From NCBI RefSeq assembly GCF_015265475.1, contig NZ_CP054493.1:62001-126000 (forward strand): a stretch of DNA of 64,000 nucleotides, read 5' to 3'. The position numbers and the translations under genes were made by a program. The DNA comes from Candidatus Sulfurimonas marisnigri (lineage in GTDB: Bacteria > Campylobacterota > Campylobacteria > Campylobacterales > Sulfurimonadaceae). Within the stretch, counting starts at the first letter, position 1; every line of letters starts with the position of its first letter. Under the pieces are notes generated by a model, which was not told the origin of the DNA, did no database searches, and saw only the letters and a list, made by a program, of their open reading frames with translations. This document shows positions 33,638-54,899 of the stretch, in pieces.

Positions 33638-34780
33638 TTAGTGAAATCTTACATTAACAGTTGTTCCTACATTCTCTGTAGATGTTACATCAATACCAAA
33701 GTTGTACTCTTTGACAATAGAGTCAACAATATTAAGACCTACACCAAAGCCGCCGGCATAGCTATTTGCCCTTGTAAATCTTTTGAAGATTGTATCAAGT
33801 TTATCTTTGGCAATGCCAATGCCTTCATCTTGTATGGCAAAGCTGTTCTCAAGTACACTTATATATATTTTTTTGTTTGGAGGAGAGTATTTTATTGCAT
33901 TACTTAGCAGGTTATTAATAAGCATTTTTGCTTTAGTTGGGGCAATAGTGAGAGTACAAGTGGTTTTTTTAAACTCTACAATTATATTTTTTTTCTCCAA
34001 GAGCTCATTAAAATATTTAATACTTTCATTTACAACAGAAGCAAAATTTAATTCTACTGCTTCTTCACTTTTTGCATCAAAACTTAAAAAACTTAATGAT
34101 GAGTATATGTCATAGAGCTGTTTTGTACTAATTGATATATTTTGTATAATTTTTTCATCATAAATTTTTTTATTTTTTGCTCTTGAAGTACTCATCATAA
34201 GGGCAGTGATTGGTGTGTTTAGCTCATGTGTTGTATCTTTTACAAACTCCTCTATCTCTTGCATTTTATCTTTTATGGGGCGCAAAAATATATATGAGAG
34301 TATTACAGAAATAATTATAATGATAATACCGACAAAAATGGAAGTGATAATAACTTTATTTCTTAATTTTGTGACACTTTGTGTGAACTCATTGCTCTGT
34401 ACAGCAACATAATCAATGCCAAGGTGTCCTGCTGTCCTTTTTGATACTAAAGTAAATGTATCACCTTCCATGTAGTACTCTTTTGACAAATCTACTTTTT
34501 GTATGTTTTGCCCATCAATCAATTTATATTTATTATCATATAGAGCTACTGTTGCATTCTCAAAGCTATCAAGAACAAACTTATTATCCATCATATGGGC
34601 TTTAATAATAGATGAGCTTACTCTATCGGAAATGTGGTTCATCTTGTAGTAGTTGTTTTGCATCTCTATTGTTTTTTGTGAAGTGTAGAACCAGTAGCTT
34701 GCAAAAAGTAAAAATATAAATGAAGAGAGAAGGTAGAGGGTTAAAAAAGAGTAAAATGATTTTTTTGTTATATTATTCAT
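33638..34780 (-). CDS. Sensor histidine kinase of the OmpR-type pair
   Basis: 380 residues from the ATG at 34780; a TTG four codons earlier is inside the regulator gene. Two membrane segments (about 14-32 and 143-166) enclose a 110-residue periplasmic domain. The HisKA motif is DTTHELNTPITAL with the phospho-acceptor His185. N-box NNLLSNAIKYSP, G1 DEGIGIAKDKL and G2 GGFGVGLNI are present. The start overlaps the response-regulator stop. The stimulus is not evident; the possible link to copper is discussed under findings. Confidence 0.93.
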   Translation of the reverse strand: MNNITKKSFYSFLTLYLLSSFIFLLFASYWFYTSQKTIEMQNNYYKMNHISDRVSSSIIKAHMMDNKFVLDSFENATVALYDNKYKLIDGQNIQKVDLSKEYYMEGDTFTLVSKRTAGHLGIDYVAVQSNEFTQSVTKLRNKVIITSIFVGIIIIIISVILSYIFLRPIKDKMQEIEEFVKDTTHELNTPITALMMSTSRAKNKKIYDEKIIQNISISTKQLYDIYSSLSFLSFDAKSEEAVELNFASVVNESIKYFNELLEKKNIIVEFKKTTCTLTIAPTKAKMLINNLLSNAIKYSPPNKKIYISVLENSFAIQDEGIGIAKDKLDTIFKRFTRANSYAGGFGVGLNIVDSIVKEYNFGIDVTSTENVGTTVNVRFH

Positions 34781-35426
34781 AAGTGTACCCAACCCCTCTT
34801 ACTGTTTGTATTTTATCTTTTCCTATCATTTCGCGCAGAGTTCTTATGTGAGAGCGTATAGTTGCATCACTTGGTATATGGTCAAAATCCCAAATATTTT
34901 GAATTAACTCATCATTGGTAATTACTCGTTTTTGATTTTTTAAAAAGTAAAACAACATCTCACCGTCTTTTTGACCCAAGGAGAAGATATTTGAGTTTTT
35001 ATTTACTTGTCGTAGCTCTGGCAAATAGAAGGTGCTCTCAGAGATGAAAATTTGAGTTTTATTGTCAATGTTAAAAAGTTTTTTTGTGTTTAGTATGCGG
35101 GCATTTAGCTCTTCAAGCTCAAAAGGCTTTTTTATGTAGTCGTGAGCTCCAAGCTCAAAGGCCTTTTTCAAGTAAGCAGTATCTGTGTATGCAGTTATAA
35201 ATATAGTTGGGGTTGTGTCATTGAACTCTCTTAGTTCGGCTAAAAGCTCAAGTCCATTTTTTCCAGCCACATTAATATCAAATATAAAAAGATCATACTT
35301 TATGGAGTCTAATTTTTTATATACCTCTTCGGAATTATAAGCATAATCCACATCCCATGACTCAGATAAATAATCTAGTAAAATATCAGATAAAACAGCA
35401 TCATCTTCCATCAAAAGTATTTTCAT
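34773..35426 (-). CDS. OmpR-family response regulator
   Basis: 217 residues from the ATG at 35426, chosen because receiver domains begin MKILLMEDD; an upstream ATG at 35441 lies in the GNAT stop region. The receiver domain has phospho-acceptor Asp50 (LFIFDIN), Thr (FITAYTD) and Lys (YIKKPF). The C-terminal winged helix is complete (KRVITNDELIQNIW, ATIRSHIRTLREMIG, VRGVGYTYE). Such regulators bind direct repeats with an 11-bp period. Repeats of that kind occur upstream of 36298, 43796 and the Cus operon. The kinase gene follows with overlapping codons. Confidence 0.94.
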   Translation of the reverse strand: MKILLMEDDAVLSDILLDYLSESWDVDYAYNSEEVYKKLDSIKYDLFIFDINVAGKNGLELLAELREFNDTTPTIFITAYTDTAYLKKAFELGAHDYIKKPFELEELNARILNTKKLFNIDNKTQIFISESTFYLPELRQVNKNSNIFSLGQKDGEMLFYFLKNQKRVITNDELIQNIWDFDHIPSDATIRSHIRTLREMIGKDKIQTVRGVGYTYE

Positions 35427-35428
35427 AT

Positions 35429-35980
35429 TTAGTCCATCCATTTCCTAGGGTCATAGCCGTCACTAGGTCGTTTTACTGACTCTTTAGATATTTGTTTTAT
35501 CATAGTTATGACTTCAGATCCATCAGTTGGACTTTTAGCGCGTGACTCTTCTATCTTGCAAAAACCAAATTTTTCAAAGTAACTAACTGTTTTGTTATTG
35601 TTCAAAACACTTACGCTTATATTTTCATATAGTGAGCCTGCTTCCAAGATGAGTTGCTCAAGCATTGAAGAACCTATCCCTTCTCCTCTAAACTCTGGCT
35701 TAACTCCGATGGTCAATATGGGGGTATTATCATTTATATATCCGTTAGAATTATCATCTTTGTTCAGCAGACGCAGCCAGATTGCCCCGGCAATTTTATT
35801 CTCTTTGAGGGCATATAGTCCCAAGTCCCTGTTTGTTAGTCCATAGTTTTGGGTATATTTTTCAAGTTCACAAAAATCATCTACAGTTTTTGCAACTTCA
35901 TCTAAGCGATAAGCAAAGTGGAGCATATCCTCTGCAATTTTTTGTTCTGTTGAACGGAGAAAATATAGTGCTATGCTCAA
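35429..35980 (-). CDS. GNAT-family N-acetyltransferase
   Basis: 183 residues. The acetyl-CoA loop is in LTIGVKPEFRGEGIGSSMLEQLI (R/Q-x-x-G-x-G/A type). NNNKTVSYFEKFGFCKIEESR provides the last motif. The substrate is unknown. The stop lies 2 bases from the chosen regulator start, and the 66-residue gene ends 2 bases before its start, so it is in the same transcript as the two-component pair. Confidence 0.85.
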   Translation of the reverse strand: MSIALYFLRSTEQKIAEDMLHFAYRLDEVAKTVDDFCELEKYTQNYGLTNRDLGLYALKENKIAGAIWLRLLNKDDNSNGYINDNTPILTIGVKPEFRGEGIGSSMLEQLILEAGSLYENISVSVLNNNKTVSYFEKFGFCKIEESRAKSPTDGSEVITMIKQISKESVKRPSDGYDPRKWMD

Positions 35981-35982
35981 AA

Positions 35983-36183
35983 CTACTCAGTTCTTGTAGT
36001 TATATCAATACCTACTTCTTTAAGCTTATACCCAATCTCCACTATGACATCTCTATATTTTTCAGTCTCCATGAAACCTTCATACGCATCCATCTTTTTA
36101 TCAGCAACCTTTTCAGCAATGTTCTCTATACTTAGTAATGCTCTCTCAAGTCTTGATTCTAACTCTTCTACGGGCTCTCTCAT
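35983..36183 (-). CDS. Small helical protein upstream of the GNAT/two-component genes
   Basis: 66 residues, predicted all-helical and charged (EELESRLERALLSIENIAEKV, YRDVIVEIGYKLKEVGIDI). No motif or family is recognised. It is the first gene of the minus-strand unit that continues with GNAT, regulator, kinase and PAS, two bases from the GNAT start. The gap to the divergent gene at 36298 contains the promoter with the TACACA direct repeat. Confidence 0.65.
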   Translation of the reverse strand: MREPVEELESRLERALLSIENIAEKVADKKMDAYEGFMETEKYRDVIVEIGYKLKEVGIDITTRTE

Positions 36184-36238
36184 AATTGTCCTTAATGATT
36201 ATTGTTGATGTTATTATACTACAAAACTATTTGCTCTT

Positions 36239-36270
36239 TACACAAACACTACACACTTATAATATATAAT
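36239..36270 (+). promoter_or_regulatory. TACACA direct repeat plus -10 box, site 1
   Basis: TACACA at 36239-36244 and again at 36250-36255 (five bases between, 11-bp period), then nine bases to TATAAT at 36265-36270. A second possible -10 (TATAAT, 36258-36263) overlaps the spacing. Site geometry is the same upstream of 43796 and of the Cus operon, fitting an OmpR/PhoB-type activator that replaces the -35 contact. Confidence 0.7.
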
Positions 36271-36297: not shown

Positions 36298-36591
36298 ATG
36301 AAGACTCTAAAACTATCGGCACTATTGCTAGGTGCAGTTCTATTTACAGGCGTTGGCGTTACAACCCTAAGTGCTAAGTGTGGTGGAGCAGAAAAACAAG
36401 CTCCTAAGGAATCAATGAAATGTGGTGCGGGCAAGTGTGGCGACTCAATGAAAGCTGCAAATAAGTGTGCTGATAAGAACTGTGACATTAAAGACTGTGA
36501 TGGAACTAAGTGCGAAGATGGTAAAAAAGGGACAATGAAATGCGGCGGTGAAAAAGGCGCAATGAAATGCGGCACAGGTAAGTGCGGTTGA
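36298..36591 (+). CDS. Secreted Cys-rich protein with KCGxGKCG motifs, candidate copper-binding (bufferin/HvfA-like)
   Basis: 97 residues with a signal peptide (about 1-25, ending LSA). The mature part has MKCGAGKCGDS and MKCGTGKCG, plus KCADKNCDIKDCDGTKCEDG, giving about 13 cysteines with Met and Lys around them. The xGKCG core resembles the EGKCG repeats of HvfA/bufferin-type peptides that bind copper after modification by a DUF692 (MNIO) enzyme, but the Glu is replaced by Ala or Thr and no MNIO gene is in this window. A lipoprotein with the same motif is in the copper efflux operon at 48432. Metal binding in the periplasm is inferred. Confidence 0.8.
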   Translation: MKTLKLSALLLGAVLFTGVGVTTLSAKCGGAEKQAPKESMKCGAGKCGDSMKAANKCADKNCDIKDCDGTKCEDGKKGTMKCGGEKGAMKCGTGKCG

Positions 36592-43734: not shown

Positions 43735-43766
43735 TACACAGAGAGTACACACGCTAGTAGTATAAT
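43735..43766 (+). promoter_or_regulatory. TACACA direct repeat plus -10 box, site 2
   Basis: TACACA at 43735-43740 and 43746-43751 (five bases GAGAG between), nine bases, then TATAAT at 43761-43766. It is upstream of the DoxX gene and has the same geometry as the sites at 36239 and 54867. Confidence 0.7.
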
Positions 43767-43795: not shown

Positions 43796-44236
43796 ATGAA
43801 ACTCAAAGAATTATATATGAATTTTTCACATGTTGGCGATTTATTTAAACCACTTTCTTTGCTTATAGCAAGGCTAATAGTTGCTTACGGATTTTATGAG
43901 CCGGCTATGATGAAATGGGGAAGTATTGAAAAAATTGCTGAGTGGTTTGGTTCAATGGGGATTCCTCTTCCTCTTTTAAATGCTTACATGGCAGCTACAA
44001 CAGAGATTGTCGGGGTAGTGTTACTTACTTTAGGCCTCTTTACTAGAGCCATTTCTTTACCACTTATCGTTGTTATGATTGTAGCAATAGTAACAGTACA
44101 TCTACCGCATGGATTTGCAGCAGGAGAGAATGGATTTGAGATACCACTCTACTATATGATATTTTTATTTATCTTTGTTTCCAATGGAGCGGGGAAATAT
44201 AGTTTAGATAGATTGATATTTGGTGAGAAAAATTAG
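43796..44236 (+). CDS. DoxX-family membrane protein
   Basis: 146 residues with four membrane helices and the DoxX pattern LIVAYGFYEPAMMKWGSIEKIAEWFGSMGIPLP and ATTEIVGVVLLTLGLFTR, including the Glu in the second helix. The family is poorly characterised; members accompany quinone/thiosulfate oxidoreductases, and DoxX genes also occur in HvfA/bufferin-type copper-peptide operons. The gene heads a unit with the GMC dehydrogenase subunits and carries the same promoter element as the Cys-rich protein at 36298. Confidence 0.88.
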   Translation: MKLKELYMNFSHVGDLFKPLSLLIARLIVAYGFYEPAMMKWGSIEKIAEWFGSMGIPLPLLNAYMAATTEIVGVVLLTLGLFTRAISLPLIVVMIVAIVTVHLPHGFAAGENGFEIPLYYMIFLFIFVSNGAGKYSLDRLIFGEKN

Positions 44237-44247: not shown

Positions 44248-44751
44248 ATGATTTTTAATTCACGCAGACTATTTTTAAAAAATAGCTTTCTTAGCTCAAT
44301 TGTATTTGTTACTTATGGGAGTGAACTCTTTGGCGTGGTTACTCCCATGCAAACCATTTCTTTGGTACAGCGTGACTTATTTCCGTCAACTCCATTGTTC
44401 CCACATGTAAAAGATATAAACGCAACGTATTGCTTAACTAAGATACTATCTCACTCCCGTGTAACAGACGAAGATAAAGCTTTTATAAAAGATGGAGTTA
44501 AGTGGCTCAATGAAGAGGCAGTTACTAAATATAAAAAACTATACTCAGCACTCTCATGGCAACAACGGCAAGAGACACTTCAAGATATAGCAGATACAGA
44601 TTGGGGAGAGAGTTGGATTAAAACAATTATGGGTTATATCTTTGAAGCTATGCTTGGCGATCCAATTTATGGCGGCAACAAAGGTGAGATAGGCTGGAAA
44701 TGGCTAAATCACAAATCTGGATTACCAAGACCAAAAAAGGAACTTTTGTGA
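44248..44751 (+). CDS. GMC oxidoreductase small subunit (gluconate 2-dehydrogenase subunit 3-like)
   Basis: 167 residues. The N-terminus NSRRLFLKNSFLSSIVFVTYG is a Tat-like twin-arginine signal that would carry the folded complex to the periplasm. The body matches the gluconate 2-dehydrogenase subunit 3 family (VKWLNEEAVTKYKKLYSALSWQQRQETLQDIA, MGYIFEAMLGDPIYGGNKGEIGWKWLNHKSG). It acts as chaperone and partner for the FAD subunit encoded next. Its stop TGA overlaps the GTG start of that gene. Confidence 0.88.
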   Translation: MIFNSRRLFLKNSFLSSIVFVTYGSELFGVVTPMQTISLVQRDLFPSTPLFPHVKDINATYCLTKILSHSRVTDEDKAFIKDGVKWLNEEAVTKYKKLYSALSWQQRQETLQDIADTDWGESWIKTIMGYIFEAMLGDPIYGGNKGEIGWKWLNHKSGLPRPKKELL

Positions 44752-46406
44752 AGTTTGACATATGTATAGTAGGTAGTGGCGCTGGTGGTTCACCAATAGC
44801 ATATGAGCTGTCTAATGCCGGTTATAAAGTAATAGTTTTGGAAAAAGGTTCTAATTATAAAGAAGAAGATTTCTCTAAAGATGAGATAGCTGTTAGTAGA
44901 AGGTCTCTCTTCACTCCACTTTTAAAAGATGAACAACATGTAATAAACGACAGAGAAAAAGATGGCTCTGTTACGAGATATGTGGGGAGTGAATATAACT
45001 GGAATTTTTGGAACGGATCAATGGTTGGCGGTTCCTCAAATCTGATGAGCGGTTATTTCCATAGGATGAAACCAAATGATTTTCGTCTAAGAAGCAAGTT
45101 TGGTGAGATAGATGGAGCAAATGTTGTTGATTGGCCTATAAGCTATGAAGATTTAGAACCATACTATACAAAGGTTGAAGAGATTATTGGAGTATCTGGA
45201 GATGCTAAAAAACATAAATTTCTTGAGCCTCGCTCAACAAAAAATTTTCCATATCCAATGCTGGAGGTCAATGGTGCTACTAAATGGTTTGATCATACAT
45301 GTAGAAGGTTGGGATATGAAAGTATACCAACGCCAAGAGCTGTTTTACCACATAATGCACTAGGTAGAAATGGTTGTTCATATTCTAACTTTTGCGGAAG
45401 TTATGGTTGTGCAACTGGAGCTAAGGGGAGTGCTAGGGCTGCACTACTTCAAAAATGCAGTGCAAAAATAGTTACAGATGCGTTTGTGTATAAACTTGAT
45501 AGCAATAAAAGTAAAATAACTAAAGCACACTATTATGACAAAAATCTTAAGAGTCACACCGTTGAGGCGAAAATATTTGTAGTTGCTGCGCAGGCAATAG
45601 AGACATCAAGACTTCTTTTAAACTCTAAAAATGTCTACTTTCCAAAAGGATTGGCAAACAACAGTGGAGAGGTTGGAAAAAATCTTATTTTTTCTGCAGG
45701 TGGAAGCGGAACAGGTAGAATAAGATTCGAATCACTTACAGCTGAACAACGCAAAGAGTTAATGGAACCAGGACTCTTTTTTAACCGTTCTTTGCAGGAT
45801 TGGTACGAGTACGAACACAGAGAGAAAAAGTACAAAGGCGGGACTATAGACTTTTTATTTGAACATGCAAATATTATAAGTCGTGCCAGCAGAGAGATGT
45901 ATGGTGACAACGGACATCTTTTATGGGGCAGGGAACTTCAAGAAAAGATACACAAAAATCTTACAACTTCAAGAGTTTTGACGTTTGAAGTTTTTAACGA
46001 TTGGTTGCCAACTGATTACTGCAATGTAACCATAGATGATAAAGTAAAAGACAAGTATGGTGTAAAAGTTGGAGCTATAAATCTCTACTCACATCCTAGG
46101 GATATCGAGGTAGGTGAGTATTTAGCAAAAAAAGCAAAAATTGTTTTACAGATGATGGGGGCAGAAGATATATCCGTAAATATTTCAGCATCTCCCCCTC
46201 CAAATCTGGTGGCTGGCGGATGCAGGTTTGGAATAAATCCTAAAACATCAGTTTTGGATTTAAACTGTAAGGCTCATGAGCTGAATAATCTTTATGTGAC
46301 AGATGCTAGTTTTATGCCAACAGGTGGGAGTGTCCCATATACATGGACTATTTATGCAAACTCTTTTAGAGTTGCAGATGCTATACTTGGCTCTCTGGAA
46401 GGCTAA
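44748..46406 (+). CDS. GMC-family FAD dehydrogenase, large subunit (GTG start)
   Basis: 552 residues from the GTG at 44748, which has AAAAGGAA upstream and overlaps the small-subunit stop (GTGA); a start at 44700 would lie deep inside that gene. The FAD-binding motif CIVGSGAGGSPIAYELSN is at the N-terminus, with GGSSNLMSG and the C-terminal LYVTDASFMPTGGSVPYTWTIYANSFRVAD. Relatives oxidise sugars, gluconate or alcohols in the periplasm and pass electrons to a cytochrome c subunit. No such subunit is adjacent, so the electron acceptor and substrate are unknown. Confidence 0.9.
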   Translation: MKFDICIVGSGAGGSPIAYELSNAGYKVIVLEKGSNYKEEDFSKDEIAVSRRSLFTPLLKDEQHVINDREKDGSVTRYVGSEYNWNFWNGSMVGGSSNLMSGYFHRMKPNDFRLRSKFGEIDGANVVDWPISYEDLEPYYTKVEEIIGVSGDAKKHKFLEPRSTKNFPYPMLEVNGATKWFDHTCRRLGYESIPTPRAVLPHNALGRNGCSYSNFCGSYGCATGAKGSARAALLQKCSAKIVTDAFVYKLDSNKSKITKAHYYDKNLKSHTVEAKIFVVAAQAIETSRLLLNSKNVYFPKGLANNSGEVGKNLIFSAGGSGTGRIRFESLTAEQRKELMEPGLFFNRSLQDWYEYEHREKKYKGGTIDFLFEHANIISRASREMYGDNGHLLWGRELQEKIHKNLTTSRVLTFEVFNDWLPTDYCNVTIDDKVKDKYGVKVGAINLYSHPRDIEVGEYLAKKAKIVLQMMGAEDISVNISASPPPNLVAGGCRFGINPKTSVLDLNCKAHELNNLYVTDASFMPTGGSVPYTWTIYANSFRVADAILGSLEG

Positions 46407-47647: not shown

Positions 47648-48454
47648 CTAATTTAAAATCTTATTATACATATTTGTTGTTGTAGAAACTATTTCCATGT
47701 CATGTAGCTTAACTATTCTAAGGAGAAGTTGTTCTGTTTGTGGAACTTCTATATAGATAGAAGTTGCTTTGTTTAAATCTTTAGAGAGGTGATATATAAG
47801 AGCAAGTGCTTCATTTATTTCATTTGAGGATAAAACAATCTGATACCCATCTTTGTAGGGCAGTAAAATTGCATAGGATGAAAGGGAGTCTTCATTATAG
47901 ACCCCTTTGCATAGAGTGCTTTTTTTAAATAAACAAGATGTATAAGACTGTTTTTTTAAATAGTTTAGTTTTAGATTGTGCTCTAAAAAAGAGCTTTCAC
48001 TAACATTGCTAACGGTTATATTTGATTTAGGTGCTTGTGTTTGTCCTGAATTAAAAGAGAAAAGAGATGTTTCAAAGTAGGCTTTAAAACCAACAGCTTC
48101 ATAGATTTGTTCTTTGCCTTGAATGCAGTCAATAGCAATCTGGCATCCATCTAAATGTTTTTTTGCAAAATTTAGAAGCTCCTTGCCAAACCCTTGTGAG
48201 CGAAATTTTTTTAGAATAAGGAGATTACTCAGTCTTCCAAATTTTTCACTCTCTTTTATAGCTAAGACAAAACCAACCAATTCTTTATCTTTGTAAGCTA
48301 TAAAAAAATCATTTGGATAAGATTTGTTAAGACACTTTATGTGACTAACATTATTAGTAAATCCTTCAAGTTTAAAAGAGTTGAAAAAAGATACAAGTTC
48401 ACTCTGCCTTAGCTCTCTTATGTTTAGCAAACTACATTGCACCACACTTGCCAA
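47648..48454 (-). CDS. GNAT-family acetyltransferase
   Basis: 268 residues. The first half is a GNAT domain with KEKELVGFVLAIKES..LKKFRSQGFGKELLNFAKKHL, the acetyl-CoA loop being RSQGFG. The second half looks like a second, degenerate GNAT-type domain (ILLPYKDGYQIVLSSNEINEALALIYHLS). Its start overlaps the Cys-rich lipoprotein stop by 23 bases, so it is probably translated from the copper operon transcript. The substrate is unknown. Confidence 0.78.
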   Translation of the reverse strand: MASVVQCSLLNIRELRQSELVSFFNSFKLEGFTNNVSHIKCLNKSYPNDFFIAYKDKELVGFVLAIKESEKFGRLSNLLILKKFRSQGFGKELLNFAKKHLDGCQIAIDCIQGKEQIYEAVGFKAYFETSLFSFNSGQTQAPKSNITVSNVSESSFLEHNLKLNYLKKQSYTSCLFKKSTLCKGVYNEDSLSSYAILLPYKDGYQIVLSSNEINEALALIYHLSKDLNKATSIYIEVPQTEQLLLRIVKLHDMEIVSTTTNMYNKILN

Positions 48455-49046
48455 CAGCGCATTTCATGGCAGGTTCTTTCGGAGCCTCTTTTGGAACTTC
48501 TTTTGGAACTTCTTTTTTAGATTTAGGTTCATTCATAGAAGCACCGCATTTGCCAACAGCACATTTCATTGCAGCCTCTTTTGGAGCTTCCTTCTTAGGT
48601 TTAGGCTCATTCATTGAAGCACCGCATTTACCAGCAGCGCATTTCATGGCAGCTTCTTTTGGAGCCTCTTTTTTAGGCTTAGGCTCGTTCATAGAAGCAC
48701 CACACTTGCCAGCAGCACATTTCATGACAGGGGCTGCTCCACATTTGCCTGTGCCACATTTTAAAATAAGCTTCTTACCGTTAGGATCTCGGACACAATC
48801 GTATGCTTCTTTTGTTGTTTTTGCTTTCATTACACAATCTTTTCGTGAATCTTTTTCACGCATTTGAGAGAGTATATTATTTTTCTTTTTAGCTAAAGCG
48901 GAGTTTCCATCAAACATATTTGCGCCACATTTTCCAGCACCACATTTCATGCCAGGAGCAGCTTTGCTCTCTTCTTTTTTCTCACCACACCCGCTTAATA
49001 CAAGCAGTGTTAGTGTAATCAATAAAAGTATTTTAATTTTTATCAT
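48432..49046 (-). CDS. Cys-rich lipoprotein with six KCxxGKCG repeats, in the copper efflux operon
   Basis: 204 residues. The lipobox LVLSGCGEK (Cys20) predicts a lipoprotein. Six copies of the motif follow: MKCGAGKCGA near 33, LKCGTGKCGA near 95, and four of the MKCA(A/V)GKCGA form near 108, 134, 160 and 194. The last part is a tandem repeat of 26-residue units joined by Pro/Lys/Glu linkers. The motif is shared with the secreted protein at 36298. The protein starts 3 bases after cusA on the same strand, so a periplasmic or outer-membrane copper buffer that feeds the pump is the natural reading. No EGKCG Glu is present. Confidence 0.88.
   Translation of the reverse strand: MIKIKILLLITLTLLVLSGCGEKKEESKAAPGMKCGAGKCGANMFDGNSALAKKKNNILSQMREKDSRKDCVMKAKTTKEAYDCVRDPNGKKLILKCGTGKCGAAPVMKCAAGKCGASMNEPKPKKEAPKEAAMKCAAGKCGASMNEPKPKKEAPKEAAMKCAVGKCGASMNEPKSKKEVPKEVPKEAPKEPAMKCAVGKCGAM
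48468..48725 (-). repeat. In-frame tandem repeat inside the Cys-rich lipoprotein gene
   Basis: Two 78-base units (48648-48725 and 48570-48647) encode nearly identical 26-residue blocks of form MKCAAGKCGASMNEPKPKKE plus APKEAA. A third, expanded unit (48468-48569, 34 codons) adds VPKE/APKE repeats. The near-identity suggests recent expansion and possible length variation among strains. Confidence 0.85.
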
Positions 49047-49048
49047 TC

Positions 49049-52000
49049 TTACTCCTCGATATTTTCAAGTTCATTTTTTTTATTTGAGAGTTCTTTTCTT
49101 GCATATAGCTCATATAAAATAGGGATAATTATCAAGCTCAGTATAGCAGAAGAGATGGCTCCGCCTAACATTGGTGCAGCTATTCTCTGCATAACTTCAC
49201 TCCCTACTCCATGTGAGTACATGATTGGGGCAAGTCCGGCAAGAAGTGAAAATACTGTCATCAGTTTAGGTCTGACTCTTTGTACCGCCCCCTCGTATAT
49301 CGCTTTGTTTAGGTGTATAAGATTAAATTCAATGCCATACTTCTCTTTAGACTCATGGACGCTCTCTTGCAGGTAAACAATCATAACAATAGCAGTTTCA
49401 GCCGCCACACCAAGGAGTGCTAAAAAGCCGACAATTACGGCTATACTCATGGCAAAGTTCAACATGTCTATATATATTAAGCCACCTAAAAGAGCAAAAG
49501 GAAGGGTTAAAAATACAATAAGTGTCGGAACCATCTCTTTAAGCGCGAAATATATAAGAACTAAAATACTAAGTAAAACAGCAGGTATAATCCAAACTAT
49601 TTTAGCCATAGCTGACTCTAGATACTCAGACTGCCCAGCCCACTCTACATAATAGCCAGAATCAAAATTAATCTCATCGATTAGTTTTTGAGCTTCTGCT
49701 TTGTACTCTGATGCGGTAATACCATCATTTGGTGTGATATACACAAATGTAACAGGGGTTGCCATCTCAGACTTAATAACAGAAGCACTTTGCCTGTATC
49801 CAATCTCTGCAAAAGTTGATAGTGGAACAAAGCCCAGTTTAGTTTTAATCTGAATATCTTTAATGCTATCAACCCCTCGTCTCTCACTCTCATCCAAACG
49901 AAGAGTAATAGGGTAACGTTCTAGACCTTTATACATGGTGGAAATTTTCATACCGCCAATAGCTAGAGATGTGTATTCAAGTAGTGCATCTTTTGCTAAA
50001 CCATAACGTTGAAGAGCCTCTTCGTCTATCTCTATATCTACATAGTATCCAGCACTTGCCTGATCAGCAAAAACCGATAGAGTTTTATTGAAACCGCGAA
50101 GCTTTTCCTCAATTATTTTTCCATATTTTTGAAGTCCGTCTGGAGTTTGACCGTATAGTTTAATCCCAAGAGGTGTACGAATGCCACTTAAAAGCATATC
50201 TATACGCCCACGAATAGGGTAAGTCCACGAGTTGATAAGTCCCGGAATTTGGAGAGCCGCTTCCATCTCTTCTCTTAATTTTGTATAGGTCATTCCCTCT
50301 CGCCACTCACTCTGTGGTTTAAGAGTTATAATAGTCTCCAGCATTCCTAAAGGTGCTGGATCAGTTGCCGTACTCGCACGTCCACCTTTACCAAAAACAG
50401 TCTCAACTTCTGGAAAAGACTTGATTATTTTATCTGTTTTTTGTGTTAAAGCTTTAGACTGGTCTATAGAGATTCCATAGGGAGTTACAGGCATATACAT
50501 AAAGCTTTGCTCATTAAGCATAGGCATAAATTCCCATTTTAAATTTTTGTAAAGCGGGTACATGTAACCAAGTGAAGCGACAACAAGAATAATAACAAGA
50601 TATTTGAGCTTCAGTCCATAAACAATTATAGGGTGGTATAGCCAGATAAAAAATCTATTTAAAGGGTTTTTGTTTTCTGGTAAGATTTTCCCCTTTACAA
50701 AATAGATCATAAGCACAGGCACAAGAGTGATGCTTAAAATTGCTCCTGCCCCCATTGTAAAAGTTTTTGTAAATGCAAGAGGAGTAAAAAGTAGACCCTC
50801 TTGACCTGAGAGAGCAAAGATGGGAAAAAATGAGACAACAATAAGTGCCAAAGCAAAAAATATTGGGCGACCAACAAGTTGAGAAGACTTTAAGATGATG
50901 TCAATTCTCTCCTGATTTGTTGGCAATCTGCCCTGTTTTGTCTCAAACTTATGTAACATTTTATGAGCATTTTCTATCATAACAATAGAGGCATCTACCA
51001 TCGCTCCTATGGCAATAGCAATTCCGCCTAAAGACATAATATTTGAGCCAATATTAAATAAGTACATCAGTAAGAAAGTTGCACCGACAGTTAGAGGGAG
51101 TATTATTAAAACAATTAGAGATGAGCGAAAGTGCATCAAAAATAGTCCAATAATAACTACAACAATAATAGACTCTTCGATAAGTGTTGTTGTAAGTGTA
51201 TCTACTGCTTTTTCTATTAAAGATGAACGGTCATAAGTTGTTATAACATCAACATCATCAATCTTTAGCTCTTTCATCTTTTTATCTATACGCTTTATGG
51301 CAGAGTAAACATCTTCACCATAGCGGAGCAGTACAATACCTCCAACAACTTCACCATCACCGTTTAAGTCTGCTACACCACGCCTAGCTGCAGGTGTTAG
51401 TTCAACTCGTGCAATATCTCCAATAGTAATGGCAACGCCACCTTTTTGAGTTACAACAAGCTTTCTAATATCATCTAAATCTTGAACGTAACCCTTTGCT
51501 TGAACCATCCACTCAAAACCATTTTCAATAACTATCCGTCCACCAGTATCGTTATTATTTGACTTCAGAACCCTTGCAACATCGTTTATGCTTAAGTTAT
51601 ATCTGACAAGGTTGTCATTGTTTACACTTACTTGATATGTAGGTACAAAACCACCAATCGAAGCAACTTCAGAGACTCCGTCTACCCCCATAAGTGCATA
51701 TTTGTAATAGTAATCTTGCAGGCTTCTAAGCTCGGCTAAATTTTTTGTTTTTGAAGTTAGTGCATACTCGTAGGCCCAGCCAACGCCTGAAGCATCAGGA
51801 CCAAGTGAAACGGCCATTGAAGCAGGTAGTTGGGACTGTATGGAAGATAGTTGTTCAAGCACACGGCTTCTTGCCCAGTACAGATCTGTCCCCTCTTTAA
51901 AAATAATATATATAAGACCATTTTCATAAGTAGAGTATCCACGTACTGTGTCAATATCAGCAATTGCCAAAAATTGAGAGACCAACGGGTATGTTCCCTG

Positions 52001-52189
52001 ATCTTCAATAATCTCAGGAGATTGACCTGGCCAATTTATCTGCACAATTGCTTGCGGAGGAGATAAGTCAGGGAGTGCGTCAAGCGGAGTGTTTTTTAAA
52101 GAATAGTATGACCCCATCGAAAGGAACAGTGTCATCATTAGTATTAAAAATTTATTTCTAATACTAAATTCTATTAATTTTTCAATCAT
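49049..52189 (-). CDS. cusA: Cu/Ag efflux RND pump, CusA type
   Basis: 1046 residues, a full heavy-metal RND transporter with twelve membrane helices. The helix-4 motif GAMVDASIVMIENAHK is the monovalent-metal (HME4) form. The three methionines that bind Cu(I)/Ag(I) in E. coli CusA have counterparts here: SFMYMPVT, DPAPLGMLETI and GRIDMLLSG. It exports Cu(I)/Ag(I) with CusB and CusC by proton antiport. The gene is downstream of cusB across an 87-base gap that contains repeat copy C, and the Cys-rich lipoprotein gene follows 3 bases later. Confidence 0.95.
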   Translation of the reverse strand: MIEKLIEFSIRNKFLILMMTLFLSMGSYYSLKNTPLDALPDLSPPQAIVQINWPGQSPEIIEDQGTYPLVSQFLAIADIDTVRGYSTYENGLIYIIFKEGTDLYWARSRVLEQLSSIQSQLPASMAVSLGPDASGVGWAYEYALTSKTKNLAELRSLQDYYYKYALMGVDGVSEVASIGGFVPTYQVSVNNDNLVRYNLSINDVARVLKSNNNDTGGRIVIENGFEWMVQAKGYVQDLDDIRKLVVTQKGGVAITIGDIARVELTPAARRGVADLNGDGEVVGGIVLLRYGEDVYSAIKRIDKKMKELKIDDVDVITTYDRSSLIEKAVDTLTTTLIEESIIVVVIIGLFLMHFRSSLIVLIILPLTVGATFLLMYLFNIGSNIMSLGGIAIAIGAMVDASIVMIENAHKMLHKFETKQGRLPTNQERIDIILKSSQLVGRPIFFALALIVVSFFPIFALSGQEGLLFTPLAFTKTFTMGAGAILSITLVPVLMIYFVKGKILPENKNPLNRFFIWLYHPIIVYGLKLKYLVIILVVASLGYMYPLYKNLKWEFMPMLNEQSFMYMPVTPYGISIDQSKALTQKTDKIIKSFPEVETVFGKGGRASTATDPAPLGMLETIITLKPQSEWREGMTYTKLREEMEAALQIPGLINSWTYPIRGRIDMLLSGIRTPLGIKLYGQTPDGLQKYGKIIEEKLRGFNKTLSVFADQASAGYYVDIEIDEEALQRYGLAKDALLEYTSLAIGGMKISTMYKGLERYPITLRLDESERRGVDSIKDIQIKTKLGFVPLSTFAEIGYRQSASVIKSEMATPVTFVYITPNDGITASEYKAEAQKLIDEINFDSGYYVEWAGQSEYLESAMAKIVWIIPAVLLSILVLIYFALKEMVPTLIVFLTLPFALLGGLIYIDMLNFAMSIAVIVGFLALLGVAAETAIVMIVYLQESVHESKEKYGIEFNLIHLNKAIYEGAVQRVRPKLMTVFSLLAGLAPIMYSHGVGSEVMQRIAAPMLGGAISSAILSLIIIPILYELYARKELSNKKNELENIEE

Positions 52190-52206: not shown

Positions 52207-52280
52207 ACTCCGTTAGGAGTTAGCTTTAGTGCCTCAGCGGCTAGCGTAGTAAAATGGACTTTGTTCATTTTGCGTACTAA
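52207..52280 (+). repeat. Multi-hairpin dispersed element, copy C
   Basis: Hairpin 1 pairs ACTCC (52207-52211) with GGAGT (52216-52220). The core CTTTAGTG follows, then GCC/GGC around loop TCAGC (52231-52241). Hairpin 3 pairs AAAATG (52251-52256) with CATTTT (52266-52271) around the same GACTTTGTT loop as copy A. The terminal ACTAA supplies the TAG stop codon of cusB on the minus strand (52277-52279). Confidence 0.75.
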
Positions 52281-53278
52281 TATAACGAGTTTATCTGTGC
52301 ATCTGAATCCATCATAAACAGAGCATTGTTGACAACTTCATCACCCTCATTAAGACCACTTATAATTGCGTATGTATTCGCATCAATGATCTTTGCAGTA
52401 ACTTCAAGAGGCTCATATTCTCCCTCGTACTCGCCAACCATAAAGACATAGTGAGTTCCGCTTTTACGAATAACTGCTGTTGTTGGTAAGACAAGCTGTG
52501 ATTTTTCATCTTTGAGTGAAATAACGTTGGCGTACATTCCAGGAAATAGGTTGTGATCTTGGTTGTCTACTCTCAAGCGTAGAGTCAGCGTAGCTACTTT
52601 TGGGTCAAGTTGCGGATAGAGAAGTTTATTATTAGTTTTGTAAACCTTATCTAACCCTTTAAAAGTAAGCTCATAGCTAGAAGTTGTTGAAAGCCTTGCT
52701 CTTTCTTCTTCAAATAGCTTTGTCTCCACCCAAACTTCATCAAGGTTAACTATCTGAAAAAGTTTTTGCTTTGCATTAAAAGCAGCCCCTTTGTCAACAC
52801 TTTTAACAAATACATAACCATCTATAGGGGAATAGATAGTAGTATTTGGTGAGACTTTTGTCCCGTCAATAACCTCGTTTATCTCTTCATTGCTTATTCC
52901 AAGGAGTTGTAGTTTGAGTTTTGCACTCTCTAACATCCCTTTATTTGGACGTTGTTTTATATACTTAAATGTATTTAGATATTCATCCTTTGCCTTGAAT
53001 ACTTCAGGAGAATATACAGTGGCTAGTGCCTCGCCTTTTTTCACTTTTTTATATATTTTATCTGCATGTAATTCAACAATATAGCCACCAAAACGTGGAG
53101 AGATATCGTATTTGCGGCTCTCATCCGTCATTACATAACCATAGTTTTTAATACGTTGGCTTTTAGTCTCTTTTTTCACTTTTATTGTTTGTACGCTGAA
53201 AAGTTGTTTTACGGTTGCTTCTTTTGCAACAAGTATCAATGGTAATACCAGTAAAAACAGTTTTATTTTTGTCTTCAT
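52277..53278 (-). CDS. cusB: Cu/Ag efflux periplasmic adaptor, CusB type
   Basis: 333 residues, shorter than E. coli CusB (407), with signal peptide (to about 19). Membrane-fusion motifs are present: RFGGYIVELHADKIYKKVKKGEALATVYSPEV (lipoyl half), helical hairpin, IYSPIDGYVFVKSVDKGAAFNAKQKLFQI (second lipoyl half) and barrel VWVETKLFEEERARL. It links CusA to the outer-membrane channel. It overlaps cusC by 4 bases. The C-terminus lies on the conserved end of repeat copy C. Confidence 0.93.
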   Translation of the reverse strand: MKTKIKLFLLVLPLILVAKEATVKQLFSVQTIKVKKETKSQRIKNYGYVMTDESRKYDISPRFGGYIVELHADKIYKKVKKGEALATVYSPEVFKAKDEYLNTFKYIKQRPNKGMLESAKLKLQLLGISNEEINEVIDGTKVSPNTTIYSPIDGYVFVKSVDKGAAFNAKQKLFQIVNLDEVWVETKLFEEERARLSTTSSYELTFKGLDKVYKTNNKLLYPQLDPKVATLTLRLRVDNQDHNLFPGMYANVISLKDEKSQLVLPTTAVIRKSGTHYVFMVGEYEGEYEPLEVTAKIIDANTYAIISGLNEGDEVVNNALFMMDSDAQINSLY

Positions 53279-54453
53279 TTTAACTCTCCTGAAAGTGATG
53301 AAATATTTGCAATATAACGGTTGTAAGAGGCTATAGCAGCTATACTTTTTTGCTCTAGTTTTAGTTTTTTTATTAATATATCTATGTATTTAAACAAATC
53401 TCCACCTGTAGCAATAGATGATGAAGTTAATTCAAACATATGCTCTATCTGAGGAAGAGCCTCATCGTGAACAATATGATAAATTTCGTAAGCAGACTTC
53501 ATCTGTGAGTAAGCATTTTTAAACTCAGAATCAACAGCTATTTGTGTGTCTTCTTTTAAGCTTTTAGCAACTAGTGTTGATTTTCTTGCTTTTTCTTCTT
53601 TGTAATCTTCGGTTGAGTATATTGGGAGGTTTATCCCTACCCCAAAAGTCATAAAGTCATCAAAATTATTTCTAGATGAGTATGCAGCTAAAACATTTAC
53701 ATCTGGATAGTTATTTGTTTTTGCACTCTCTAAAACCGCTTTACTCTTATCAATCTGCTTATCTCTTAGAGAAATGCTATTATTGTTTACTAAACCAGCT
53801 TCTAAACTCTGTATACCCGGCATATTTCCAACACTAAGTTCCAGGTCTATTTTTTTTACTTCAAAAGAAGAAAGATAAGACAGTTTTGCATACGATGAAT
53901 ATATTTTTGCATTTAAAGTACTCTTTTGAATACGAAGATCAGATAGAGTTAATTCAGCTGACATTATCCCCATATGTTGGTTGTCAGAAGTGGCTGTGTA
54001 AGATTGGAAAAGTTCAATATTTTGTTTTGTTAGTTCTTCATATGAGTTGATTATTTTATAAAGATTCTCAAGCTCCCATATTGTGTAAACTTGATTTTTT
54101 ATCTTATTTACTAGGTTTACTTTGGCTTGTTCTAGAGAAGTAGTTAAGACTTCTTTTTCTGCTAAAGAGATTTTTTTTAAATTTTCTCTTTTCCCATAGA
54201 ATGGAAGTTTTTGTTGCAGTGTTAAAATCTTTTGACTCATCGCTTGAGCATCATCTAAAGTATTTTGTGCATAAGATAAAGTAGGGTTGGAAAACTGGTT
54301 TGAAATATCTATGATTGAGTCATTTACCTCGATACGGTGTATTATAGATTCTAGCGATGGGTTTTTGTCTAAGGCTCTTGTTATTATCTCATCAAGAGTT
54401 AAGCCGTAAAGACTTGAAGCAAGAACAAAGATGGTTAAAAATATGTTTTTCAT
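53275..54453 (-). CDS. cusC: TolC-family outer-membrane efflux protein, CusC type
   Basis: 392 residues. The signal peptide (to about 18) is followed by two TolC-like repeats: LDEIITRALDKNPSLESI, LPFYGKRE, NQVYTIWELENLYKI and, in the second half, GVGINLPIYSTEDYKEEKARKS. Long helices predict a periplasmic tunnel on an outer-membrane barrel. No lipobox cysteine is seen. It is the second gene of the Cus unit after the Met-rich protein (9-base gap) and overlaps cusB. Confidence 0.92.
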   Translation of the reverse strand: MKNIFLTIFVLASSLYGLTLDEIITRALDKNPSLESIIHRIEVNDSIIDISNQFSNPTLSYAQNTLDDAQAMSQKILTLQQKLPFYGKRENLKKISLAEKEVLTTSLEQAKVNLVNKIKNQVYTIWELENLYKIINSYEELTKQNIELFQSYTATSDNQHMGIMSAELTLSDLRIQKSTLNAKIYSSYAKLSYLSSFEVKKIDLELSVGNMPGIQSLEAGLVNNNSISLRDKQIDKSKAVLESAKTNNYPDVNVLAAYSSRNNFDDFMTFGVGINLPIYSTEDYKEEKARKSTLVAKSLKEDTQIAVDSEFKNAYSQMKSAYEIYHIVHDEALPQIEHMFELTSSSIATGGDLFKYIDILIKKLKLEQKSIAAIASYNRYIANISSLSGELK

Positions 54454-54462
54454 TTACTTTCC

Positions 54463-54840
54463 TTAAAAGTTCAAAGAGGTTTTAACACGTGATTTCTTAC
54501 CAACTGTAGGCGTTATAAAGATATGCAACTGCCATGTACCGCCCATAGAGAGGTTTACAGTAGTTTCAAATTTTCCATTTCCCAAATCTTTTGCATCAGC
54601 TTTTGATTCCATCGCCGGCATTCCAGGCATCGCAGGCATAAAAGCTTTTACGCTTACTTTTGCATCTTTATATTTTGGTGTAATATCAAGAATAATAGTA
54701 TTTGAGCCTGTAGTAAGTGGTTTGTCAGAACTGATAATTACTTCAGTCGTTCTACTTTTTGCAGATTTTTCAAAAGCTGCAGCTTGCAAGAAACTAAGAC
54801 TAAGTAATAAAGTCAGTAAAATAGTTGAAATATTTTTCAT
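54463..54840 (-). CDS. Met-rich FixH/YtkA-like periplasmic protein of the Cus operon
   Basis: 125 residues from the ATG at 54840; AAGGA sits about seven bases upstream, and an adjacent ATG at 54843 is too close. A signal peptide is followed by an immunoglobulin-like YtkA/FixH fold (TGSNTIILDITPKYKDAKVSVKAFMPAMPGMPAMESK ... GGTWQLHIFITP). The run MPAMPGMPAM is a likely Cu(I) ligand set. It is the first gene of the copper efflux operon and is controlled by the TACACA-repeat promoter. A CusF-like metallochaperone role is inferred. Confidence 0.85.
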   Translation of the reverse strand: MKNISTILLTLLLSLSFLQAAAFEKSAKSRTTEVIISSDKPLTTGSNTIILDITPKYKDAKVSVKAFMPAMPGMPAMESKADAKDLGNGKFETTVNLSMGGTWQLHIFITPTVGKKSRVKTSLNF

Positions 54841-54866
54841 CATGTATCCTTTTTTAAGTATTTTGA

Positions 54867-54899
54867 ATTGTACCATACTGTATGTGCAGAGAGTGTGTA
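54867..54899 (-). promoter_or_regulatory. TACACA/TGCACA direct repeat plus -10 box, site 3 (Cus operon)
   Basis: Reading the minus strand, TACACA (54899-54894), five bases CTCTC, TGCACA (54888-54883), ten bases, then TACAAT (54872-54867), about 27 bases before the Cus operon ATG. The geometry is that of the sites at 36239 and 43735. Confidence 0.7.

Follow-up and report, generated by a model that had tools for sequence, protein, structure and literature searches.

Three promoters in the window, that is, in the whole 64,000-nucleotide stretch of DNA analysed here, carry the same pair of short direct repeats in front of a -10 box. This locus raises the question of whether the repeats are a shared operator, which regulator reads them and what is switched on behind them. 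In the sequences analysed, two TRCACA copies lie 11 bp apart, with 9 and sometimes 10 bp between them and the -10 box downstream. Copper and thiol-redox genes throughout the order keep this layout. We infer that the box is bound, that copper is the signal and that the effect is activation. The box is probably the operator of a copper-responsive two-component system which works like CrdRS/CusRS and drives the pump, the KCG and the DoxX/GMC units. It is a widely conserved on-switch that most likely lets one sensor–regulator pair co-activate genes for copper binding, export and damage repair, Helicobacter relatives included. With this, what was a hint from three sites becomes an operator and a regulon that can be tested throughout a bacterial order. 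The features discussed are listed in Table 1.

Table 1. Features of the window, with strand and supporting sequence or domain match
Feature	Position	Strand	Sequence or match
Sensor histidine kinase, overlaps the regulator gene	33638-34792	-	PF02518, E 1.1e-20
OmpR/PhoB-family response regulator, proposed box reader	34773-35441	-	PF00072 82.7 bits, PF00486 61.4 bits, both over cut-off
Box and -10, KCG1 promoter	36239-36270	+	TACACA-N5-TACACA-N9-TATAAT
KCG-repeat exported protein 1 (KCG1), 97 aa, Cys-rich	36298-36591	+	Signal peptide by eye
Box and -10, DoxX unit promoter	43735-43766	+	TACACA-N5-TACACA-N9-TATAAT
DoxX family membrane protein	43796-44236	+	PF07681, E 9e-19
Gluconate 2-dehydrogenase subunit 3 family protein	44248-44751	+	PF13618, E 2.2e-11
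GMC-family flavin oxidoreductase	44700-46406	+	PF05199 and PF00732
Second KCG-repeat protein (KCG2), behind the crd pump genes	48432-49046	-	NCBIfam NF050137
CusA/CzcA heavy-metal RND pump	49049-52189	-	NCBIfam TIGR00914, 979.6 bits vs cut-off 701.45
Membrane-fusion protein, CzcB/CusB-like	52277-53278	-	PF16576, E 2.1e-51
Outer-membrane efflux protein, CrdB/CusC-like	53275-54453	-	PF02321
CrdA-like periplasmic copper protein, YtkA family	54463-54840	-	PF13115, E 4.6e-19 (run on 54463-54876)
Box and -10, crd/cus efflux operon promoter	54867-54899	-	TACACA-N5-TGCACA-N10-TACAAT

The repeat element in the window and in the genome

All three TACACA-N5-T(A/G)CACA-N9/10 elements of the original prediction were confirmed at the positions given in Table 1. 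Given the distance of 9 or 10 bp to the -10 box, the repeats cover the -35 region. Operators of the PhoB/OmpR type are direct repeats with an 11-bp period over the -35 region. The element found here has the same layout, and its distance from the -10 box is fixed. The half-site is a different one and nothing in the element is structurally new; the operator sequence of the E. coli CusR box also differs from the TRCACA element.

The window contains three exact matches, against a mean of 0.01 and a maximum of one in dinucleotide shuffles (n = 100). A scan of the genome, which had been proposed as a check, found the strict box exactly only at the three named promoters and once more with a single mismatch. 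When up to three mismatches were accepted in the repeat pair with N9 and the -10 box, the genome gave nine matches and the control also nine, and this equality favours the reading that the matches are due to chance or to a generic promoter feature of AT-rich genomes. Two of the nine are window sites with no mismatch, one (G000:C1:1264308) has one and the other six have three; the crdA site is missed by the fixed N9 pattern because its spacer is N10. The site with one mismatch, at G000:C1:1264308-1264339 (L061, L185), is a fourth candidate box. The gene behind it encodes a 795-aa protein resembling an HAE3/MMPL-type RND exporter, with scores below the family cut-offs, and the site with its exporter is a possible further member of the regulon.

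The repeat pair alone, with up to one mismatch, has 32 forward matches genome-wide against 22 for the reversed control and is therefore uninformative in this loose form. As an exact pair it has five matches in the 2,488,728-base genome, the three window sites and two others (G000:C1:731103 and G000:C1:745328; L004 and L005). The latter two are without a -10 box and are near-identical copies 14 kb apart, which indicates a local duplication.

Concerning the origin of the three window elements, duplication of a single promoter was rejected, since their flanks are unlike. The earlier statement that the match is not a simple duplication holds also between species, where the flanks of the KCG and DoxX promoters differ, with the exception of the KCG promoter in the near relative G140.

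Distribution of the box across genomes

The pattern TRCACA-N5-TRCACA-N8-11-TAYAAT was searched in 200 genomes of the family and gave 113 sites in 55 of them, against none for the reversed pattern. In a sample of 298 genomes of the order, the strict pattern is found in 42, with one match of the reversed control (G339); seven families other than the window's own have it. Both genome sets are samples in which many genomes are related, so that the counts of sites and genomes are not independent. From the 113 family sites, 107 were fetched again and two were added later (G149:C97 and G173:C46); three are those of the window and one (G147:C59) was left out. Outside the family, 65 of the 66 sites were fetched again and G340:C168 was left out.

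The distance from the box to the -10 hexamer is narrowly fixed. In the family it is 9 at 104 of 110 sites and 10 at the other 6, never 8 or 11 in a search that allowed 8-11; at 67 further sites it is 9 in 51 and 10 in 16. Also, an A is present at the expected start point, 7 bases past the -10 box, in 82% of 101 aligned sites. The strict-pattern counts against the reversed controls, the fixed spacer and the recurring target genes all argue against chance matches or a generic promoter feature. That explanation, which we consider to have next to no probability, was rejected on the reversed-pattern controls in the family and order samples; the strict pattern is not a random one.

The individual promoters are conserved as well. 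The KCG1 promoter element is kept in five relatives, with identical or nearly identical flanks in G140 and different ones in the other four. In the close relative G140, the DoxX promoter keeps the box with one mismatch in changed surroundings, and the crd promoter element is the same. Orthologues and related genes carry the box across families; the possibility that it would lack conservation or stand before unrelated genes was not borne out.

In several genomes, two or three boxes are found in tandem within about 10 kb (L079, L117, L121, L138, L142, L260, L263 and L264), those of L260 being divergent rather than tandem. Such stretches form copper gene clusters.

Genes downstream of the box

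The first genes were read at 108 sites (one of them, L046, being the window's first site) and at 67 more, 175 in all; three have no called ORF, which leaves 172. These were labelled by keyword, with an ORF-choice rule of our own. Labels of copper or of thiol/methionine redox were given to 96 of the 172 first genes: KCG-repeat exported proteins (43), CrdA (18), Cu-type P-ATPases (9), the DsbD family (9), thioredoxin-like proteins (4), multicopper oxidases (3), CrdB (3), CzcA (2), MsrA (2), MsrP (2) and MsrB (1). A further 43 encode DoxX (21), the small MCIPHG protein (19) or Gluconate_2-dh3 (3), and at three sites the first gene is the regulator itself. The label 'other' was given to 30, at least three of which are DsbD-like (L115, L124, L266). 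Pfam backs single representatives with matches to PMSR, SelR, Oxidored_molyb, Cu-oxidase, E1-E2 ATPase with HMBD, DsbD, MbnB_TglH_ChrH and DUF2063. For crdA in the window, the ATG at 54840 is the likely start codon, since the one further upstream, at 54876, falls inside the -10 region. The Gluconate_2-dh3 protein has an N-terminal SRRLFLKN, which looks like a Tat signal by eye.

The original prediction of a copper-buffering and efflux set finds support for the most part, and the KCG and crd pump genes do carry the box. It was too narrow, since relatives add genes of thiol and methionine-sulfoxide repair. Through shared control, copper and thiol damage would be connected with the KCG-repeat and MCIPHG proteins and with the DoxX/Gluconate_2-dh3/GMC unit.

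The box-bearing MsrA, MsrB, MsrP and DsbD units of relatives also suit a different signal, in which stress in the periplasm (oxidative, HOCl, nitrosative or thiol) is the main cue for the regulon and copper is one trigger among several. Excerpts of PMC9696931 point the same way, reporting that H. pylori crdS is up under NO stress and suggesting an NO regulon governed by CrdRS. We regard this as unlikely: the KCG, efflux pump, CrdA, CopA-type ATPase and multicopper oxidase targets outnumber the repair genes, and the copper induction of MsrPQ in E. coli, which protects the Cus system, goes through CusSR (PMC9302797, in excerpt). With copper as the preferred signal, the regulon would bring together the export of metal and the repair of methionine sulfoxides and disulfides, and would parallel E. 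coli CusSR–MsrPQ in a distant phylum. The likeness to E. coli CusSR (and HprSR) with cusCFBA and msrPQ consists of a copper two-component system, an RND pump and MsrPQ repair.

The adjacent two-component pair as candidate reader

Based on its sequence and surroundings, the OmpR-family regulator encoded next to the first site is the best candidate for the reader of the box. It had been placed at 34773-35426, 0.9 kb from that site; its family and adjacency stand, while the ORF extends to 35441 and the distance is about 0.8 kb. The regulator stays below the cut-offs of the NCBIfam models for copper/silver regulators (NF007346, 89.1 vs 420 bits) and heavy-metal regulators (TIGR01387, 94.8 vs 279.2 bits). 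In the kinase, PF00512 is just below its cut-off (26.1 vs 26.9).

Orthologues of the regulator were defined by a near-complete match of at least 61% identity, and the same-genus counts (box in 43 of 107 genomes, regulator in 39 of 107) were read by hand. The box is found in 36 of the 39 genomes with an orthologue and in 7 of the 68 without (Fisher 6e-18, a value which overstates independence because the genomes are related); the latter group includes G175, whose match is a fragment (76% identity, residues 6-95). Three genomes (G163, G181 and G157) have the regulator and no strict box. Among the seven with a box and no orthologue, G047 has another regulator with the recognition-helix signature described below close to its crd operon, G195 has a partial one some 2.5 kb away from its sites, and in G175 there is the N-terminal fragment. 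The remaining four, G138 (a single contig), G150, G170 and G197, have boxes, yet none of the regulators read there carries the signature (16 of 17 matches read in G138, 4 of 14 in G150, 6 of 18 in G170 and 7 of 16 in G197).

Regulators are also found near boxes elsewhere: one of at least 50% identity lies within 9 of 80 box loci in a first set, and one of at least 38% within 14 of 55 in a second. At three loci the box is directly followed by a gene for a regulator of 46-48% identity, after 27 bp in L236, 33 bp in L238 and 73 bp in L241. Concerning autoregulation in the window, a minus-strand scan of 35901-36260 with a loosened repeat found no box.

The recognition helix of the window regulator is PSDATIRSHIRTLRE, with the signature T[ILV]R[STV][HY][IV][RK], which was defined after the sequences had been seen. 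The signature is present in one of the genome's 14 own OmpR-family regulators (the window's), in 30 of 30 orthologues read and in all 15 regulators close to boxes elsewhere. Of 18 class-B paralogues, one has it (L275 of G172, with the crd box of this genome about 3 kb away). A scan of genome contigs for the GMC gene gave four loci, from three Sulfurimonas sp. and one Helicobacteraceae bacterium, which were used solely in the comparison of regulators with the first set of box loci and in the kinase alignment. In that alignment, some rows of which are duplicates, the periplasmic residue Met67 is present in 49 of 49 rows and the periplasmic His123 in 43 of 49. Both are also found in all 18 class-B kinases read, and this metal site was therefore rejected as proof of copper specificity.

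Adjacency, co-occurrence, boxes before related regulator genes in three genomes and the recognition helix all speak for the adjacent regulator as reader, as had been suggested. Four genomes do not fit, and in overall similarity a paralogue is closer to the regulators of distant crdA genomes. The box may instead be a copper operator read by another OmpR-family paralogue (L297 here, class B in relatives), alone or together with the adjacent regulator. In E. coli, one box is common to HprR and CusR. G138, G150, G170 and G197 keep boxes while the nearest relatives found there are class-B pairs only, the regulators of distant crdA genomes mostly match L297 best, and the class-B regulator L275 has the signature and lies near a crd box. 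We consider such a reader quite improbable, as class B occurs also in genomes without a strict box (e.g. G085, G099 and G107), and L297 and 17 of the 18 class-B regulators are without the helix signature common to all of the near-box regulators elsewhere.

Relation to the Helicobacter CrdRS system

In H. pylori, copper acts on crdAB-czcBA via CrdRS, as given in excerpts of PMC12319023 and of the reviews PMC4557348 and PMC9696931. The system of the window resembles it in having an OmpR-family pair and, as putative target, CrdA with an RND pump. Of 43 genomes chosen from four distant families, 16 have a CrdA relative. The element T[AC]CACA-N5-T[AC]CACA-N9/10 with a -10-like hexamer is present at 15 of the 16 crdA promoters (families f14 and f9, one of which is Helicobacter-like), beginning 57-82 bp before the start codon chosen. 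The repeat at the Helicobacter-like promoters is a similar one, also of 11 bp, and its spacing to the -10 hexamer is the same. No match was found in 500 shuffles of each distant crdA upstream region with a pattern slightly looser than this one and chosen after the sequences had been read. In the exception, G454, the element is absent and the best regulator match is also without the helix signature. L338 has a perfect match to the published hp1326 forward primer and three mismatches to the reverse primer, as given in an excerpt of PMC9182242, and by this match L338 belongs to H. pylori itself or to a closely related group.

The best regulator match lies on the crdA strand in three genomes of f9 and in G383, G256 and G268 of f14; in these six, crdA and the regulator are 3.0 kb apart in G225 and 1.2-1.3 kb apart in the other five. 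Also, the end of a kinase-like frame stands directly before crdA in L342, L343 and L346. When the regulators of the 16 distant crdA genomes were compared with those of the window genome, the best match was L297 in 14, the window regulator in one (L355) and another in one. This argues against simple orthology of the window regulator. The seven H. pylori-type regulators have 41-43% identity to L297 and 38-39% to the window regulator; the window regulator differs from H. pylori CrdR, with an identity of only about 40% and L297 slightly closer. The helix signature of the distant regulators is common to them and the window regulator and absent from L297. A further difference from H. pylori CrdRS is that the box here also stands before the KCG proteins and the DoxX/GMC unit, and in relatives before repair genes.

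A published CrdR operator was not found in the literature searched, which was available in part and did not include the 2005 primary paper. The element at the Helicobacter-like crdA promoters is offered as a candidate CrdR binding sequence.

Proposed mechanism

We propose that the sensor kinase would detect periplasmic copper and phosphorylate the adjacent OmpR-family regulator. Two regulator molecules would then bind the repeats head to tail and bring in RNA polymerase by class II activation. Three units may be switched on in this way: the crdAB-czcBA RND pump together with KCG2, the exported and Cys-rich KCG1, which could soak up copper like a sponge, and the DoxX/Gluconate_2-dh3/GMC genes. 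The switch would in relatives also reach CopA-type ATPases, a multicopper oxidase, DsbD and methionine sulfoxide reductases. As a net effect, copper would be exported and buffered, and the damage it does in the periplasm repaired. Against this proposal stands an observation in Nitratiruptor, where Cu did not induce cusA and cusB (PMC10092412); this copper transcriptome is not informative for the present regulon.

KCG-repeat proteins and other genes of the regulon

The KCG2 protein matches the HvfA-type KCG-x-KCG domain (NF050137, 28.6 bits vs cut-off 19.5) and remains far below the HvfA equivalog NF050188 (20.9 vs 95 bits). Its sole Pfam match over the cut-off is DHODB_Fe-S_bind (36.3 vs 23.9), an assignment which was rejected as a look-alike in Cys spacing. 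For KCG1, searches of Pfam and NCBIfam gave no match. In f7 genomes, CrdA-like proteins have, by eye, a KCG-type N-terminal extension (L229, L251, L252, L253), which ties the KCG and CrdA families together.

HvfA and the bufferins (Buf_EGKCG) share with these proteins the repeated KCG motifs, the export signal and a DoxX in the regulon. They differ in their sequence context, AGKCG/TGKCG here against EGKCG, and in MNIO (PF05114), the modifying enzyme for precursors of this kind, which elsewhere makes thiooxazole metallophores; it has no match in the window genome and matches in 2 of 14 control genomes. Among the 200 family genomes, 184 have no MNIO match. A box-driven KCG gene is present in 28 same-genus genomes, read by hand, of which four have MNIO (G155, G173, G175 and G191) and the other 24, some of them incomplete, gave no match. 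Buf_EGKCG precursors are described in PMC12452194 as accompanied by MNIO, DUF2063 and DoxX and as found mostly in Pseudomonadota; according to the same paper, precursors without a nearby MNIO are perhaps modified from elsewhere or unmodified. A bolder reading, which we hold to be very doubtful, is that the box marks an ancient order-wide copper regulon in which HvfA-like KCG proteins mostly work without MNIO, and the DoxX/Gluconate_2-dh3/GMC unit replaces it as a periplasmic Cys- or copper-processing oxidoreductase. In G155 and G173 (L125, L130), the genes for MNIO and DUF2063 come directly after a small Cys-rich precursor with the box in front of it, so that the same box stands at the head of a canonical metallophore cluster.

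The MCIPHG protein is conserved, 61-64 aa long, mostly starts with MCIPHG and contains FEKGDPDFVDER; it is the first box-driven gene at 19 sites (L078, L079, L081, L083, L091, L100, L113, L117, L119, L121, L129, L132, L136, L138, L139, L142, L218 and L271). A representative (L107) has no Pfam match, and no MCIPHG protein was found in the window. The MCIPHG gene often precedes the Gluconate_2-dh3 and GMC genes. Also, the gene after DoxX in the regulon often encodes a 583-aa protein with a glutamate-synthase domain (PF01645) and hydrophobic N-terminal segments (L081:2995-4743 and similar).
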